A stretch of 50,324 bases of DNA from Chloroflexota bacterium. Lineage in GTDB: Bacteria > Chloroflexota > Limnocylindria > Limnocylindrales > CSP1-4. A program made the translations under genes and the position numbers. The stretch's first letter is position 1, and every line of letters starts with the position of its first letter. The notes under the pieces are model-generated. The model saw nothing but the letters and a program-made list of their open reading frames with translations, ran no database searches and was not told where the DNA came from. This document shows, in pieces, positions 36,008 through 47,988 of this stretch. The stretch covers positions 1 to 50,324 of the forward strand of contig JANYJG010000162.1 in the NCBI GenBank assembly GCA_025358515.1, written 5' to 3'.

Positions 36008-36061
36008 CTCAGGAAGTCCTAAGGATCGGCTCAGGTGCCGCTAAGCGGAGCGAAACATGAT
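36008..36061 (+). promoter_or_regulatory. Array A: four 11-bp direct repeats + -10 CATGAT
   Basis: CTCAGGAAGTC CTAAGGATCGG CTCAGGTGCCG CTAAGCGGAGC GAAA CATGAT; units at 36008, 36019, 36030, 36041. Confidence 0.7.
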
Positions 36062-36177: not shown

Positions 36178-36384
36178 ATGGATCAGCATTCGATGTCCAC
36201 GCAGCCCGGTGAGATCAAGGATCCCGTATGCGGGATGACCATCGACGCCAAGCAGGCAATCGCGAACAGCTTGACGACGGAACACGAAGGCACGACTTAC
36301 TACTTCTGCGGCCGCGGCTGCAAGCTTGAGTTCTCGGACGATCCCGGCCACTACCTGGATCCGTCGCACCGGCCCTCGATGTAG
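36178..36384 (+). CDS. YHS domain metal-binding protein
   Basis: KDPVCGMTIDAKQAI...GTTYYFCGRGCKLEFSDDPGHYL; SD AAGGAGG before ATG. Confidence 0.88.
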   Translation: MDQHSMSTQPGEIKDPVCGMTIDAKQAIANSLTTEHEGTTYYFCGRGCKLEFSDDPGHYLDPSHRPSM

Positions 36385-38062: not shown

Positions 38063-38554
38063 TCAGGATTGCTTTGCGGGACGAAGCGCGACGCGCCGCG
38101 ACGCCACGGTAAAGGCCGCAGGGGCGCCGCCGACGAGCACAGCCACGCCGGCGGCAGGCTCAAGCTGGAGCGCGCCCGTAGTGACGAGCAACGCGAACAC
38201 CGCCGCGCCGGTCGCAATCATGAGGACGATCCGGGCTCTCGGTACGAGCGCCGCCCGATGCCCTGCGATCTCGATCTCGCCGCGATAACGGCCCATCCCA
38301 CACGTGAACCGAAGGACACCGGGCGGCTGCGCTGGAAGGTCGATCACCGTCGTCCCGTTGGCCACCAGTCGTCGCTCGATGTGCGGGGAAGAGAAGATCA
38401 CCCGCTCCGTGCAATGCTCGGCATCGCGCCGCTGGAAGACCAGGCGGAGTGGCACGTTCGCCTGGGCCACGGACTGAGCCGGCCGGTATCCACGATCGAC
38501 GCGGATCCGGACGATCTGCGGCTCCGCTGTCGGGACGCTGGTGAAAGTGCTCAT
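38063..38554 (-). CDS. Cupredoxin-like domain protein with C-terminal TM helices
   Basis: IRVDRGYRPAQSVAQANVPLRLVFQRRDAEHCTERVIFSSPHIERRL...LRFTCGMGRYRGEI. Confidence 0.75.
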   Translation of the reverse strand: MSTFTSVPTAEPQIVRIRVDRGYRPAQSVAQANVPLRLVFQRRDAEHCTERVIFSSPHIERRLVANGTTVIDLPAQPPGVLRFTCGMGRYRGEIEIAGHRAALVPRARIVLMIATGAAVFALLVTTGALQLEPAAGVAVLVGGAPAAFTVASRRVALRPAKQS

Positions 38555-38560
38555 GCAAGC

Positions 38561-38614
38561 AGTACAACGTTTCCGGATGAGACGTACGTGAGAGCGACTT
38601 AACGAACGGCTGAG
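38561..38614 (-). promoter_or_regulatory. Array B: four 11-bp direct repeats (one degenerate) + -10 TGTACT + leaderless ATG
   Basis: Minus strand CTCAGCCGTTC GTTAAGTCGCT CTCACGTACGT CTCATCCGGAA ACGT TGTACT GCTTGC ATG. Confidence 0.7.
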
Positions 38615-38629: not shown

Positions 38630-41047
38630 TCAGCGCGCCATCGCCCCGGCAACCCGAGGTGCGCGGAACCCACGCAGGCGGAGGGCGTTGGAGACGACGG
38701 TTACGCTCGACAGAGCCATCGCTGCGGCGGCGAAGATCGGGTCGAGCAGAATGCCGCTGAACGGATAGAAGACACCCGCGGCAAGTGGGATCAGGGCCAC
38801 GTTGTAGGCGAAGGCCCAGAAGAGGTTCTGCTTGATATTGCGCATCGTCGCCCTCGAAAGAGCGAACGCGGTTACCAGGCCCAGCAGGTCGCCGCTCATG
38901 AGCGTGACGCCCGCGGACTCGATGGCGATATCCGTGCCGGTTCCGATTGCCACCCCGACGTCGGCCGAGGCGAGGGCCGGGGCATCGTTCACTCCGTCGC
39001 CGACCATGGCAACCTTCTTGCCTTCGGCCTGGAGTCGGCGAATCTGGGCGGCCTTCTCATCGGGCCGAACATCGGCCAGGACACGGTCGACACCCGCCTC
39101 ATGGGCGATTGCCGCGGCGGTCGTCTCGTTGTCGCCGGTCAGCATCACTACCTGGAGCCCGAGACGGCGAAGCTGCGACACGGCGGCCGACGAGCTGGCT
39201 TTGAGGGTGTCGGCAATGGCGATGACGGCGGCGAGGCTGCCGTCTACCGCGACGTAGACGGGGGTCTTCCCGGCGGCGGCCAGGTCCTGGGCAGCCGCGC
39301 TGAGCGGCGACGCGTCGATGCCTTGATCGCCCAAATACCCGGCGCGCCCCACGAGGACCTTCCGTTGCCCAACCCGAGCCGAGATGCCCTGGCCGCTCAC
39401 GGACGCGAAATCGGTCGTGTCCGACAGGCTGAGACCGCGCTCCTCCGTCGCATACCGAACGATAGCCTCGCCGAGCGGATGCTCGGACCCACGTTCTGCT
39501 GCGGCCGCCAGGGCCAAGATGTCGGCTTCGGTCAGGACGGCGGGGGCTTCGGCGGCGAGGGACTCGGGGGCGCCGGGGGCTCGCACAATGTCCGTCACCC
39601 GCGGACGACCCTCGGTCAGAGTGCCCGTCTTATCGAGAACAACCACCTTGACCTGGTGCAACCGCTCGAGGGCTTCGGCGTTTCGGAATAGGATGCCGTG
39701 CTCCGCGGCCTTGCCAGTGCCCACCATGATCGAAGTCGGTGTCGCCAGCCCGAGTGCGCAGGGGCAAGCAATGATCAGAACCGCGACCATGTTCAGCAGC
39801 GCCAGGTTGAAGGCGGGCTGTGGGCCGAAGAGAAGCCACACGGCAAACGTGAGTCCGGCCGCACCCAGGACTGCGGGCACGAAGTAGCCGGTGACGGCAT
39901 CCGCGAGCCGCTGGATCGGCGCCTTGCTGCCCTGGGCCTCCTGGACGAGGCGGACGATCTGGGCGAGTACCGTGTCCCGGCCGACCCGGCGGGCCTCAAA
40001 TGTGAAGGATCCGGAGCCGTTCATCGTGCCGCCGATCACTTCGTCGCCGCTGGACTTGGTGACCGGCATGCTCTCGCCCGTGACCATGCTTTCATCGATG
40101 TTTGACGAACCGTTCGCTACCGATCCATCGACGGGAACCCTCTCGCCCGGCCGGACCCGGACCTGGTCTCCCACGATGACCTCTTCCACCGCGATATCGA
40201 GCTCGACGCCGTCCCGCACGACGCGAGCGGTACGCGGTGCCAGGGCGATGAGCTTCTTGATCGCGTCGGACGTATGGCTGCGCGCCCGAGCCTCAAGGAA
40301 CCGGCCGAGCAGGATCAGGGTGATGATCGCCGACGACGTGTCGAAGTAGAGCGGCATCTCCCCGTTCCGCGCCACGCCGGCAGCCTCGAAGAAGGCCGGG
40401 AAGAGGATCGCCGCCAGGCTGTACACGTACGCCGCCGAAGTTCCAACGGCGATGAGCGTGTTCATGTCGGTGGCGCGATGGCGAGCGACCTTGAAGGCGC
40501 CGGCGTAGAAGCCGCGGCCCGCGTAGAACTGCACAGGCGTGGCGAGCGCGAGTTCAAGCCAGGGGTTGGAGAGCCAGTGCGGCAGGAAGGGCGCGATCGT
40601 CATGGACGCGAGGGCGACGATGAGCGGCGCCGTGAGGATGGCGGCCACGATGAGGTGTCGGCGCGTCTCGGCCAGGTGGCGCTCGGCGTAGGTCCCCTCG
40701 CCTCTCGACTTCGCTCGTGAGTCTACGGCCGCGTCTGCGGTAGTTGCGAGGCCCGCCACGGATCGGGCAGCAACGCTGCCCGCTGAACTGTCGGCCATGG
40801 TTCCGCCATGCTCGGCCCGATCAAGCCGCGCCTCGTAGCCGGCGGCCTCAACGGCCTTGCCCAGCGCGGCAGGAGCGATGCGGCGCGAGTCGTATCTGAC
40901 GCTCGCGGTCTCGGTGGCAAGGTTTACCGTGGCCTCGATGACTCCGTCGGCCTTGCGGAGATACCGCTCGATGCGGTTCACGCACGAGGCGCAGGTCATT
41001 CCCTCGACGGGAAACTGGATGGTGGCCGTCGGGATGGTTTCGTTCAT
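38630..41047 (-). CDS. copA: Cu(+)-translocating P-type ATPase with N-terminal HMA domain
   Basis: EGMTCASCVNRIE, ACPCALGLATPTSIMVGTGKAAEHGILFRNAEALE, DKTGTLTEGRP; start trimmed to ATG 41047. Confidence 0.93.
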   Translation of the reverse strand: MNETIPTATIQFPVEGMTCASCVNRIERYLRKADGVIEATVNLATETASVRYDSRRIAPAALGKAVEAAGYEARLDRAEHGGTMADSSAGSVAARSVAGLATTADAAVDSRAKSRGEGTYAERHLAETRRHLIVAAILTAPLIVALASMTIAPFLPHWLSNPWLELALATPVQFYAGRGFYAGAFKVARHRATDMNTLIAVGTSAAYVYSLAAILFPAFFEAAGVARNGEMPLYFDTSSAIITLILLGRFLEARARSHTSDAIKKLIALAPRTARVVRDGVELDIAVEEVIVGDQVRVRPGERVPVDGSVANGSSNIDESMVTGESMPVTKSSGDEVIGGTMNGSGSFTFEARRVGRDTVLAQIVRLVQEAQGSKAPIQRLADAVTGYFVPAVLGAAGLTFAVWLLFGPQPAFNLALLNMVAVLIIACPCALGLATPTSIMVGTGKAAEHGILFRNAEALERLHQVKVVVLDKTGTLTEGRPRVTDIVRAPGAPESLAAEAPAVLTEADILALAAAAERGSEHPLGEAIVRYATEERGLSLSDTTDFASVSGQGISARVGQRKVLVGRAGYLGDQGIDASPLSAAAQDLAAAGKTPVYVAVDGSLAAVIAIADTLKASSSAAVSQLRRLGLQVVMLTGDNETTAAAIAHEAGVDRVLADVRPDEKAAQIRRLQAEGKKVAMVGDGVNDAPALASADVGVAIGTGTDIAIESAGVTLMSGDLLGLVTAFALSRATMRNIKQNLFWAFAYNVALIPLAAGVFYPFSGILLDPIFAAAAMALSSVTVVSNALRLRGFRAPRVAGAMAR

Positions 41048-41089: not shown

Positions 41090-41132
41090 ATCGTGCGCCA
41101 TAACCATGAGAGCCGGCTGAGACCGCGGTGAG
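41090..41132 (-). promoter_or_regulatory. Array C: three 11-bp direct repeats + -10 CACGAT (copA promoter)
   Basis: Minus strand CTCACCGCGGT CTCAGCCGGCT CTCATGGTTAT GGCG CACGAT; TGAG at 41107, 41118, 41129. Confidence 0.7.
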
Positions 41133-41171: not shown

Positions 41172-41203
41172 CTCACATTATTCTCAGGTTGACGTGGCAA
41201 GAT
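41172..41203 (+). promoter_or_regulatory. Array D: two 11-bp direct repeats + -10 CAAGAT
   Basis: CTCACATTATT CTCAGGTTGAC GTGG CAAGAT. Confidence 0.65.
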
Positions 41204-42912: not shown

Positions 42913-43070
42913 GACGCGGGCCTCGGGGCCGATTGGGTGAATTCTCTGGTTCTTCTTAGCTCACATTCACGCCGCTCTCAGGAGCCGCCACGAGACTGAC
43001 CAAATCCCCGATCAATGAAAAAACAGAGGCGGCCGGATTGCCTCCCCTCTCCCGGCCCGCCGAGTCCCCG

Positions 43071-43108: not shown

Positions 43109-43151
43109 CTCACCCTGCGCTAAGGTCCGACTCAGGTTCCGAGGCCAAGAT
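43109..43151 (+). promoter_or_regulatory. Array E: three 11-bp direct repeats + -10 CAAGAT + leaderless ATG
   Basis: CTCACCCTGCG CTAAGGTCCGA CTCAGGTTCCG AGGC CAAGAT AGGCGC ATG. Confidence 0.7.
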
Positions 43152-43157
43152 AGGCGC

Positions 43158-43640
43158 ATGAGAATCCCATTTCGACCGCTCCTCGTGGTATCGATTGCAT
43201 TGCTGGCGGGCGCATGCAGCTCCGCATCTTCGACCGTAGCCGGCCCCAATGTGGCCACCAGCGCAAGTGCTCAACCAGTGGCCGCCGGGGCTGCGGGGGT
43301 GACGGGCGATTCGACCCAGACCAGCGACCGGGCCAGCATCACCATCGTCGTGACCTGGGCCGGGCCGGCGACGGGGGCAGCCTTCGAGGTCAAGATGGAC
43401 AACCACATGATCGACCTTGCGTCTGTCGACCTGACGGCCGCGACACTGACCAACAATCGCGGCGAAAAGCTATCTCGGCCAACCTGGGAGGGCGGAGCAT
43501 CGGGACACCACCGCGAGGGCAAGCTCACGTTTGGAACCTCAGTAGCGGCCCTCTTCGCCGGCGCGACTCAGGTTGATCTCCAGCTACCGGCGGTGGGCGA
43601 CACCTCGCCCAGGGACTTCAAGTGGACATTGGCCAAATGA
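43158..43640 (+). CDS. Hypothetical lipoprotein
   Basis: MRIPFRPLLVVSIALLAGACSS lipobox; start trimmed to ATG 43158. Confidence 0.75.
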   Translation: MRIPFRPLLVVSIALLAGACSSASSTVAGPNVATSASAQPVAAGAAGVTGDSTQTSDRASITIVVTWAGPATGAAFEVKMDNHMIDLASVDLTAATLTNNRGEKLSRPTWEGGASGHHREGKLTFGTSVAALFAGATQVDLQLPAVGDTSPRDFKWTLAK

Positions 43641-44134
43641 CGCATCGGGTGTTGCCCAGCTGGTCGGGCTCGCTGGTTGCGGGCGCCACAGGCACGGCAG
43701 GGCTGGTCGTTCTGTATGTGGCTCTCATTAGCCTTGCCCAGGGGCCCGGGCACGCTGTAGACCAGCTGCGGGCCGATCTCCCCTTCGTCCTCGCCATTGC
43801 GATTGGCTTTGGAACGCAGGTTGGCCTGTTCGTGGAGCTTCGCGCCATCCACTCGAGGCAGCGTGCGTCCGGTGCGCTGACCCTGGCGAGCGCCGGGGCC
43901 GGTACCGCCGCAATGCTCGCCTGCTGCGCGCACCATCTCGTGGACGTCTTGCCGCTGGTCGGCCTGTCCGCGGCCACGGTCTTCCTGGCCGATTACCGAA
44001 CGCCGCTGCTCGCAATCAGCTTGGGCATGAACGCCCTTGGGATCGTCGTTATCGGCCGCCAACTAATCGTCGCCCGGCGGGCAATGGGAAGCTCGATGGC
44101 GGTGCTCAGCGACCCGCCGCAGGAAGCTCAATAG
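43637..44134 (+). CDS. Hypothetical multi-TM membrane protein with CCAHH motif
   Basis: ATGA overlap; TMs; AAMLACCAHHLVDVLPLVGLSAATVFL. Confidence 0.7.
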   Translation: MTHRVLPSWSGSLVAGATGTAGLVVLYVALISLAQGPGHAVDQLRADLPFVLAIAIGFGTQVGLFVELRAIHSRQRASGALTLASAGAGTAAMLACCAHHLVDVLPLVGLSAATVFLADYRTPLLAISLGMNALGIVVIGRQLIVARRAMGSSMAVLSDPPQEAQ

Positions 44135-45515
44135 AGACGACCGTGCCGCCCCCTTGTCTGGGCGAGACGGCGATCGAGCCCGCATGCGACTCGACGATCC
44201 ATTTTGCGATCGCCAGGCCAAGCCCCGTGCCGGCAGGGCGCAACGAGCGCGCGGCCGAGCCTCGATAGAGACGCTCGAAGACATGGTCGCGGTCGTCCTC
44301 CCGGATGCCGATGCCAGTGTCTGACACCTCGACCCTGACCCACCGATCTCTCAGGGTCAGGCTCGCCGTTACGGTTCCACCTGCCGGTGTGTATCTCCCG
44401 GCGTTGTCGAGCACAATCAGAAAGAGCTCCTTGAGGCGGTCGCGGTCGCCCTCGACGACAACCGGCTCGATCGCATCGACCTCCATCCGGACGTGCGGGG
44501 CGGCTGGACCAGCCTGACGCACGGCTTCGAGAAGGACCGCGTCCAGCTCCACGGCAGCGACCTCAAGTCGGGCGCCTGACTCCGCCCGAGCCAGTGACAG
44601 CAGATCGCCAACAAGGCGAGCCATCCGTTCCGTCTCGGATCGGGCATCGGCCAGCAGGGCCTCGCGCTCTTCGGCCGGCAAGGCTGGACGGCCGGCCAGA
44701 TCGAGGCTCGCTCGCAGGGTCGTGAGGGGAGTGCGTAGCTCGTGCGATGCGTCGCCGAGGAAGCGCTGCAGGGCCTGATGGTTCTCCTCGAGCGCTGCGA
44801 GCATCTCGTTGAATGCCACCGCGAGCTCCGAAACCTCATCGCCGCCCGAGCCTGCGGCCTCGACGCGCGCTCCGAAGTCGCCCGACAGCGAGATCGCCCT
44901 GGCCGTGTCGGTCACGTCAGAAACCGGTGCGAGGGCGCGTCTGGCAAGCAGTGAGCCGACGCCGAAGGCGAGTGCGGTCAGCAGGAGCCCACCGAGCACG
45001 AGCACAAGCGCCACGGTCCGAAGAAGGTCGTCGGAATCGCGAGTGGACGCGGCCCAGACGACGTAGCCGGCGACGCTCTGCCCGGTGGCGGCGATGGGCT
45101 CCACGACGAGACGAAGCCGCTCATCGCCGGCGATTACGGCGTGGACGTCCTGCGAGTGGGTGCGCGTGGAAATGTCGCCAATTGGGACTTCCAACGGTGG
45201 CGAACCGGGGGCTGCGGAGTCGAGGACGAGCTTGCCTGTTGAATCGAGGATCTCGACCCGCCCGCCGGTCGAAGCGAACTGATTGAGCAGGCGCGCGGTC
45301 GGATGAAGCCTGCCGTCGGTGCCGACGTCCTGAGCAAATGCGCCGGCCGCATGCTCGGCATTGGCCATCAGGCCCACATCGAATGACGACTGGAGCTGTG
45401 CCCGCAGGACCAGGAACACGCCGGTCCCGAAGACGGCCAGCGCGGCGACGAGTAGGCCCGTGTAGATGAGCGCGAGGCGCGTCCGGATCGGCAGCCGCCG
45501 GACAGACAGATTCAC
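44106..45515 (-). CDS. Sensor histidine kinase (HAMP-HisKA-HATPase)
   Basis: [54 protein letters not shown]. Confidence 0.93.
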
Positions 45516-46192
45516 TCCTTGAGCACGTATCCGGACCCACGAACCGTGTGGATCAGGCGTGGCTCGCCCCCGGCCTCGAGCTTGTTGCGTAGATACCGGA
45601 TGTAAACCTCGAGGACGTTCGACTCGCCGCCGAAATCGTAGGACCAGACGCGGTCCATGATGACGTCGCGGGTCAGAACCTTGCGAGGATGGCGCAACAG
45701 CAGGAGGAGCAGGTTGAACTCGGTCGTGGTCAGGGTGATCGGGCGGCCGGAGCGTCTTGCTTCACGCGCGTCGACATCCAGTTCCAGGTCGCCGAACCGG
45801 AGAACCTCGCCGGATTGAGTCGGCCGTCGTCGCAGCAGCGCCCGAACGCGGGCCAGCAGCTCCTCAAAGCTGAACGGCTTGACGAGATAATCGTCGGCAC
45901 CCGTCTCGAGTCCCTCGACGCGATCCTTTACCTCGTCACGGGCCGTGAGCATCAGTATCGCCACCTCGTCGCCGGCGGCACGCAGGCGGCGGCAGACTTC
46001 CAGGCCGTCGATGCCGGGCAGCATGACGTCGAGGACCACGAGATCCGGCGTCTGATCGCGCGACTTTTCGAGGCCCTCCTCGCCGGAGCCGGCGTCGGTG
46101 ACCCGGAAGCCCTCGTAGACGAGGCCGCGCCGGACGACCGACCTGATCTTTGGGTCGTCATCGATGACCAGGATGCGTGCGGCGTCGCTCAT
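45512..46192 (-). CDS. OmpR/PhoB-family response regulator
   Basis: [56 protein letters not shown]; wHTH C-term; start trimmed to ATG 46192. Confidence 0.94.
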
Positions 46193-46198
46193 GGATGA

Positions 46199-46241
46199 AT
46201 GATCCCACGCGAAGCTGAGAGTTGCATGAGAGCGGGCTGAG
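46199..46241 (-). promoter_or_regulatory. Array F: three 11-bp direct repeats + -10 GATCAT + leaderless ATG (response-regulator promoter)
   Basis: Minus strand CTCAGCCCGCT CTCATGCAACT CTCAGCTTCGC GTGG GATCAT TCATCC ATG. Confidence 0.7.
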
Positions 46242-46263
46242 TCAAGGAGCCGGCTAGCAATCG

Positions 46264-46297
46264 CGGATCCGGCCGCAAGCCGGATCCGGCCGCAAGC
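46264..46297. repeat. 17-bp tandem duplication creating a 9-bp-arm inverted repeat
   Basis: GGATCCGGCCGCAAGCC x2; GGATCCGGC-CGCAA-GCCGGATCC. Confidence 0.8.
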
Positions 46298-46403
46298 CGT
46301 GAACTTGACCAACTCTTGAGGCGGCCATGCGCTTCGCCAGAGATTGGCCTGCGATGCTGTAACGGTGAGCCCGGGAGTTCCGGGCGGAAACAAATGGAGT
46401 CCG

Positions 46404-46652
46404 ATGATGATGGGATACGGTGCCGGGTCCGGATCCGCGGGGCTTATGTGGGGCCTTGGCGGGATGCTCCTGATCGTCGGTCTGGTGGTCCTGGTCGTTT
46501 GGGCCGTCTCGCGTGGGACCTCGAATAGTGCCCCGTCTGCCAGCCCAGATCGCCTCGACGCTCAATCGATCCTGCGGGCGCGATTCGCCCGCGGTGAAAT
46601 CACCGAGGCCGAATTCGTGCAGGTCAAGAAGGTCTTGGGGGACGATCGATGA
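46404..46652 (+). CDS. SHOCT domain membrane protein
   Basis: [44 protein letters not shown]. Confidence 0.85.
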
Positions 46653-47167
46653 ACGGTCGAGCTACTCTCCTGCTGGGGGCTGTACTGACGCTGGCCGGTG
46701 TCATAACCATCGGAGCCGGAGCCCTTGTCGCGCCGGCTGAGGGCAACTCCCAGGGGACGGCCTGGACGGGCATGATGGGCGGCGCCAACGGCATGATGGG
46801 CGGCGCCACGTCGGCTCCGGGGCCCGACGCCGCTGGTTTTGTTGCCGGCACGACGGCCAGCCCGCGCCTGGTGCGGATCCTCGCCACGCCCGTGCTTCGC
46901 TTCTCACCTGACGTCGTGACGGTTAAAGCGGGTGAGACGATCACCTTTGTGCTGACGACGATGGGCCCCACGGTCCATGAGTTCATGGTCGGACCGGCCG
47001 CCGACGTGGCAGCCAACAAGGACGGGACGCCAGAGATTACCGATATCGGCATGATGCAGACGAAGTCGCTCACGTACACATTCACTGGTTCCGGGCCGTT
47101 CGCCTTCGCTTGCCACGCGCCCGGCCACTACGAGGCTGGGATGAAGGGGACGATCGTCGTCCGGTAA
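46649..47167 (+). CDS. Type-1 copper cupredoxin (plastocyanin-like) with Met-Gly-rich segment
   Basis: VTVKAGETITFVLTTMGPTVHEFMVG...FAFACHAPGHYEAGMKGTIVV; MMGGANGMMGGA. Confidence 0.85.
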   Translation: MNGRATLLLGAVLTLAGVITIGAGALVAPAEGNSQGTAWTGMMGGANGMMGGATSAPGPDAAGFVAGTTASPRLVRILATPVLRFSPDVVTVKAGETITFVLTTMGPTVHEFMVGPAADVAANKDGTPEITDIGMMQTKSLTYTFTGSGPFAFACHAPGHYEAGMKGTIVVR

Positions 47168-47199
47168 CCTGTCCGGCAAGTCTTGGGGGCGTCTCGACG

Positions 47200-47988
47200 A
47201 TGGCGGCTACGATGTCGGACAGACCGCCTCGGCCGCCGTCCGACGGCACGGAGCTCCAGCGGTCGGATGCGAGGTATGAATTGGCGGAGGACGGAACCCC
47301 GATCCGCGTCCTGGTCGTCGATGACGAGGGCTCGATCCGCGATATCGTCCGGGGTTTCCTGGAGCGGGAGGGCATGACCGTCCTGGAGGCGGTCGATGGA
47401 CCTTCCGCCGTAAAGGCGGCGCGTGAGTTCCGGCCGGACGTCGTCGTACTCGACGTGATGTTGCCGGGCTTCGATGGCCTGGAAGCTCTCCGCCAGATCC
47501 GGTCGTTCGCCGATCCGTACGTGCTACTGCTGACCGCCCGCCACGAGGAAGTCGATCGAATCGTCGGGCTCACCCTGGGGGCCGACGACTACCTCACGAA
47601 ACCATTCTCCCCGCGCGAGCTGGTGGCGCGAGTCCTCGCCCTCCTGCGCCGTCGCCGTGAACAGGAGACGAGCGGCGGCCGGCTGGTGCGGAGCGGCGAC
47701 CTCTCGGTGGACGTGCCCGGCCGGACGGTGACGGTAGCGGGCGAACCCGTCGAACTCACCGCCCTTGAGTTCGATCTCCTGGTGACCCTCGTCCGCGACC
47801 CCGGCGTCGTCCTCACTCGGCAGCGGCTCCTGGACGCAGTCTGGGGCGCCGACTTCTTCGGCGACGACCACGTTCTTGACGTCCACGTCGCGAACCTGCG
47901 GCGCAAGATCGGACGGGTCGGCGCCGACCCGAGCCCGATCGAGACGGTCCGCGGCGTCGGATTCCGCTTCGCCCGGGATCGGCGATGA
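47200..47988 (+). CDS. OmpR-family response regulator
   Basis: [52 protein letters not shown]; start trimmed from 47110. Confidence 0.92.
   Translation: MAATMSDRPPRPPSDGTELQRSDARYELAEDGTPIRVLVVDDEGSIRDIVRGFLEREGMTVLEAVDGPSAVKAAREFRPDVVVLDVMLPGFDGLEALRQIRSFADPYVLLLTARHEEVDRIVGLTLGADDYLTKPFSPRELVARVLALLRRRREQETSGGRLVRSGDLSVDVPGRTVTVAGEPVELTALEFDLLVTLVRDPGVVLTRQRLLDAVWGADFFGDDHVLDVHVANLRRKIGRVGADPSPIETVRGVGFRFARDRR

Follow-up and report, generated by a model that had tools for sequence, protein, structure and literature searches.

The window analysed here, a stretch of 50,324 nucleotides from a Chloroflexota bacterium, carries a response regulator (RR) gene on its minus strand, the neighbourhood of which encodes a copper-type P-ATPase (copA), cupredoxin-like proteins, a CopZ-like HMA protein, a YHS-domain protein and a plastocyanin-like protein. 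Profile searches detected a receiver and a winged-helix DNA-binding domain in RR and thereby placed it in the OmpR/PhoB family. Like the CusR/CopR/CzcR regulators (TIGR01387), RR is an OmpR-family protein encoded beside metal-resistance genes; unlike them, it stays below the curated cut-off of this heavy-metal subfamily (237 bits versus 279.2). The nearest named records are derived from Chloroflexi MAGs. The genes and the promoter region in front of RR are arranged as follows.

44106 to 45515, minus strand: sensor histidine kinase, overlapping the RR stop by 4 bp (operon)
45512 to 46192, minus strand: response regulator, OmpR/PhoB family, 226 aa (PF00072 and PF00486, far above cut-off)
46193 to 46198, minus strand: TCATCC, the 6 nt between GATCAT and ATG (from the sequence)
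46199 to 46204, minus strand: predicted −10 hexamer GATCAT (NANNNT type), located where A2 (75%) and T6 (87%) are conserved after arrays
46205 to 46215, minus strand: 11-bp gap between the last half-site and the −10 hexamer, without a −35 hexamer (alignment, sigma-70 scan)
46216 to 46241, minus strand: predicted RR binding array of three CTCA half-sites (period, conservation, shuffles)

Reading into the RR gene, the minus-strand order is CTCAGCCCGCT CTCATGCAACT CTCA GCTTCGCGTGG GATCAT TCATCC ATG. The CTCA units at 46238-46241, 46227-46230 and 46216-46219 repeat with a period of exactly 11 bp, and three units in this register matched twice in the window compared to no match in 100 dinucleotide shuffles. 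The first-pass annotation had described the same order with 6 nt in front of the ATG, and this part stands; its 15 bp between the last CTCA and GATCAT, in contrast, is the start-to-start distance, and the real gap is 11 bp. The array is also refined to three units. GATCAT departs from TANNNT by the missing first T. A sigma-70 −35/−10 pair was not detected within 46000-46500, no Shine-Dalgarno sequence (SD) precedes the RR ATG, as had been noted before, and an Rfam search of 44000-47300 gave no match. A perfect 17-bp tandem repeat, CGGATCCGGCCGCAAGC, in two copies together with a 10-bp inverted repeat, lies at 46264-46297, in the interval separating the array from the divergent gene.

For comparison, 107 genomes of the family were searched and 28 further loci were taken, comprising 27 RRs with 77-96% identity and a 62% paralog (G003b). 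Including the window, the set consists of 29 loci with 28 orthologs and 468 kb. CTCA-N7-CTCA runs occurred 95 times in this set versus twice in the reversed control; the loci are homologous and the counts thus not independent, yet the spacer sequences vary and the runs stand before different target genes. Alignment on the last CTCA clearly demonstrated an A at +16 in 75% and a T at +20 in 87% of the runs, so that NANNNT begins 11 bp after the unit. In 71 runs NANNNT was found at this fixed position, with the third unit present there at 90-99% per base, and the half-site consensus across the regulon is TCTCAG[CG]. Arrays with the 11-bp gap precede RR, CopA-like, CopZ-like, YHS, cupredoxin and lipoprotein-like genes. 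Near Anaerolineae, actinobacterial and proteobacterial relatives, the number of runs was at or close to the control (7/3, 2/3 and 3/3, respectively). A fortuitous similarity, or sequence that was inherited but has no function, would find some room in the homology of the loci; we give it next to no weight, since the bases between the units diverge, whereas unit, period and distance to the −10 hexamer hold at many unrelated genes and shuffles gave no matches.

Within the window, the same geometry is found in front of several island genes.

36008 to 36061, plus strand: CTCA/CTAA/CTCA/CTAA with a period of 11 bp, gap of 11 and CATGAT, 5′ of the YHS-domain gene 36178-36384
38561 to 38592, minus strand: two CTCA half-sites, gap of 11, TGTACT, 6 nt and the ATG of a putatively leaderless cupredoxin-like gene, 38063-38554
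41107 to 41132, minus strand: predicted copA promoter, three CTCA half-sites, 11-bp gap and CACGAT at 41090-41095 (copA ORF 38630-41047)
41172 to 41203, plus strand: predicted cupredoxin operon promoter, two CTCA half-sites, gap of 11 and CAAGAT (geometry)
43120 to 43151, plus strand: CTAA/CTCA array, gap of 11, CAAGAT, 6 nt and the ATG of the putatively leaderless lipoprotein-like gene 43158-43640

The cupredoxin operon encodes, from 41243 on, a cupredoxin, a membrane protein and the CopZ-like HMA protein. The lipoprotein-like protein, which had no Pfam match, is an uncharacterised member of the island; its relatives have an array promoter of equal type in 8 loci and are mostly leaderless by prediction. 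By eye, a weak array appears possible at 42957-42985 (CTTA, TTCA, CTCA, period 11 bp), between the CopZ-like gene and 43158. A second copper-island piece of the same assembly (C134, L188) carries arrays before genes for cupredoxin-like, membrane and DoxX-like proteins and a second copper-type ATPase, these names being taken from reading the sequences rather than from a profile search.

The 16/17 identity between the cores of the RR and copA arrays, from which a common binding protein had been proposed, was confirmed, and the 2.78-Mb assembly contains CTCAGCCNGCTCTCATG at just two places, the RR promoter and the copA promoter. The resemblance of the two arrays is not chance. Nevertheless, the case rests mainly on the comparison of related loci. 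Of the 17 matched bases, 8 belong to the CTCA units, and relatives do not conserve most of the bases between units, so that the identity carries less weight than the unit, spacing and −10 position that are shared. The proposal of one protein for both promoters is supported at the sequence level, as an equal array and gap precede copA and other genes and the number of arrays tracks RR.

Arrays are also a regular feature of the RR orthologs. An array plus −10 hexamer was present within 400 bp upstream of RR in 23 of the 27 orthologs with full upstream sequence (23/28 overall; G012 was left out, as its contig gives only 92 bp upstream). Three units plus the hexamer were found in 22 of these, and two units plus the hexamer in the remaining one (G007). 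Neither shuffles of the ortholog upstream regions (400-bp scan) nor the upstream regions of 32 more distant Chloroflexota RRs (57-66% identity) contained an array plus hexamer. These findings argue for the predicted autoregulatory promoter put forward in the first-pass annotation. A scored array within 400 bp was absent in G003, G022, G032 and G086. In the first three of these, another gene ends 19 nt 5′ of RR, and in G003 and G032 an array is located about 1.2 kb upstream of RR. This gene (loci L041, L050 and L052) shows a multicopper-oxidase-like end (LLHCHDLHH) followed by a Met-rich tail of MPGM repeats. A short Met-rich leader peptide before RR was considered and rejected, because in these three genomes the segment forms the end of a longer protein that has the multicopper-oxidase-like motif. 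Similar Met-rich tails, without the rest of the gene, separate array and RR in G006, G099b and G103 and look like remnants left by a deletion of the gene. In the cultured Ktedonobacter racemifer (L086, 5897-5950), a variant array (CTCA, CTCA, CTTA, ATCA, period 11 bp, 11 bp to TATACT) precedes the orthologous RR, kinase and TerC genes.

The distribution of the arrays also bears on the identity of the binding protein. Genomes with an RR ortholog have a mean of 8.5 array-plus-hexamer sites compared to 1.6 in genomes without one and 0.3 in the control (Mann-Whitney p = 5e-11), and within the genus of the window the three RR-bearing genomes have 7-11 sites versus 0-3 in the others. Another OmpR-family RR, either the neighbour encoded at 47200-47988 or an unlinked one, might bind the arrays instead, in which case the RR operon would be a target and not autoregulated. 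The genome of the window indeed contains six RR matches at E ≤ 1e-50, and some genomes without an ortholog possess 6-8 such sites, where another RR may use similar sequences. We consider this unlikely, as the arrays cluster around this RR, their number tracks its presence and the neighbouring RR differs in its recognition helix (HVLDVHVANL). RR itself, judged by these comparisons, very probably binds the array upstream of its own gene.

The recognition helix SN[VI]LEVY[VI]RYLR is found in all orthologs, with the contact positions unvarying except for one V-to-I change. By PDB sequence match, PrrA ranks first and PhoP second among the solved relatives, both being proteins of M. tuberculosis. 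PhoP contacts bases of its TCACAGC-N4 repeats through N212, V213, E215, S216, Y217 and Y220 and binds a three-repeat site at 4.6 nM (PMC4832192). RR carries N, V, E, V, Y and Y at these positions, which are thus identical in five of six cases, with Val in place of Ser216. The unit TCTCAGC is distinct from the PhoP unit, matching it at six of seven bases in equal register, and the base that differs is contacted by Ser216 of PhoP via a water molecule. The match between Val for Ser216 and the base change is suggestive only. A strict code of one residue for one base (Ser216 to Val, A to T) was not firmly held, as L119 combines a Leu at this position with TCACAG repeats. Furthermore, arrays cannot be predicted from the helix alone, since Anaerolineae RRs with 57-66% identity share a practically identical helix and have no arrays nearby.

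With GATCAT and ATG separated by 6 nt, the start of transcription would fall on the A of the ATG and is thus predicted at 46192. Among the 71 runs, the ATG most often follows the hexamer after 6 nt (14 runs) or 7 nt (8 runs), together 22/71 against a background of about 1 per position. RR further conforms to the description of leaderless genes, a −10-like hexamer about 12 nt before the start codon and no SD (PMC3160421). In 4 of 12 Chloroflexi genomes, leaderless genes preceded by TANNNT at about 12 bp account for 4.7% of the genes on average (PMC3160421). In comparison, RR likewise lacks an SD and has NANNNT 12 nt upstream of its ATG, but its hexamer is coupled to the RR array in place of a −35 element. 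Alternatively, RR might be activated by its own product without being leaderless, with a transcription start further upstream or a later start codon. A leader of about 26-130 nt precedes most orthologs, and the leadered orthologs mostly carry an SD (−7 to −13 kcal/mol; exceptions G090, G096a and G022), which would favour this possibility. We assign it a small but real chance, as the ATGAGCGA start is kept in most orthologs, the 6-7 nt spacing recurs, and G000, G054 and G037, as well as G056 if the upstream ATG is used, have no SD (−2.7 to −4.0 kcal/mol). The leaderless start suggested in the first-pass annotation is thus supported in the genus of the window and probably in G056 only, and does not extend to most orthologs.

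Based on these comparisons, we regard it as likely that the RR-kinase operon has a class II promoter of the PhoB/PhoP type that is self-activated, leaderless in the genus and shared with copA, cupredoxin and other island genes. Phosphorylated RR would bind the three TCTCAGC-like half-sites as head-to-tail subunits 11 bp, or about one helical turn, apart. Occupying the place of a −35 hexamer, it would position RNA polymerase on a −10 hexamer that lacks a −35 partner and lies exactly 11 bp further downstream, and transcription would begin at or within one base of the A of the RR ATG, resulting in a leaderless message. Through equivalent arrays, RR would also activate copA, cupredoxin, CopZ-like, YHS and other island genes, and a positive feedback loop would be established. 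Copper is probably the signal because of the nature of the target genes. Autorepression is common among regulators, and RR might accordingly act on its array as a repressor. This we hold to be very unlikely, as the array lies 5′ of the −10 hexamer, at the −35 position and without a −35 hexamer, and as copA and other targets show an equal layout, which suits activation.

The array geometry in the window and its relatives, predicted direct-repeat sites of about 11-bp period, is that of OmpR/PhoB regulators, and the fixed 11-bp gap together with the absence of a sigma-70 pair corresponds to class II activation of the PhoB type, in which the array replaces −35 at a fixed distance from −10. The pho box of Escherichia coli has the same 11-bp period and spacing to −10 as the RR promoter. 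Its direct repeats likewise stand in for −35 (PMC3413638), but half-site and regulon (phosphate) differ, the promoter is leadered, and the RR promoter has three half-sites. M. tuberculosis PhoP, also an OmpR/PhoB RR, recognises a 7-bp unit with a 4-bp spacer (11-bp period) and uses a third repeat (PMC4832192; PMC3413638), and sites overlapping −35 are read as class II (PMC3413638). Here, in contrast, the unit is TCTCAGC, Val replaces Ser216, the predicted targets belong to a copper island and the array lies just upstream of a putatively leaderless promoter; the autoregulatory repeats of phoP itself are located downstream of +1 (PMC3413638). CopRS of Corynebacterium glutamicum is also a two-component system of copper genes, and its RR binds an 11-bp-period direct repeat, TGAAGATTTnnTGAAGATTT, beside its own gene (PMC3140484), but the half-site is unrelated and forms a single site between divergent operons, whereas here many arrays are spread across the island. 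In the papers searched, no relevant description of an RR that binds CTCA or TCTCAG repeats was found. The sequence CTCAG is contained in the mycobacterial MprA box.

Combining these observations, one might tentatively imagine, although we rather doubt the scheme as a whole, that a Chloroflexota RR lineage reads TCTCAGC, one base away from TCACAGC of PhoP and matching the Ser-to-Val exchange at the residue contacting that base, that in this family the RR acquired a copper island of about ten promoters, and that RR came to lie next to its own array when the multicopper-oxidase-like gene between them was lost, with leaderless autoactivation as the outcome.

Every component of the proposed mechanism is already known, which limits the surprise. 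The type of switch is well known, and this predicted case is unusually well supported by the comparison of related genomes. The leaderless and leadered orthologs represent a natural comparison for a change of translation start in a putatively self-activated regulator. For an uncultured Chloroflexota family, the arrays provide a testable promoter code, TCTCAGC repeats with an 11-bp period and 11 bp to NANNNT, by which the predicted metal-gene regulon, including uncharacterised genes, may be read from sequence.
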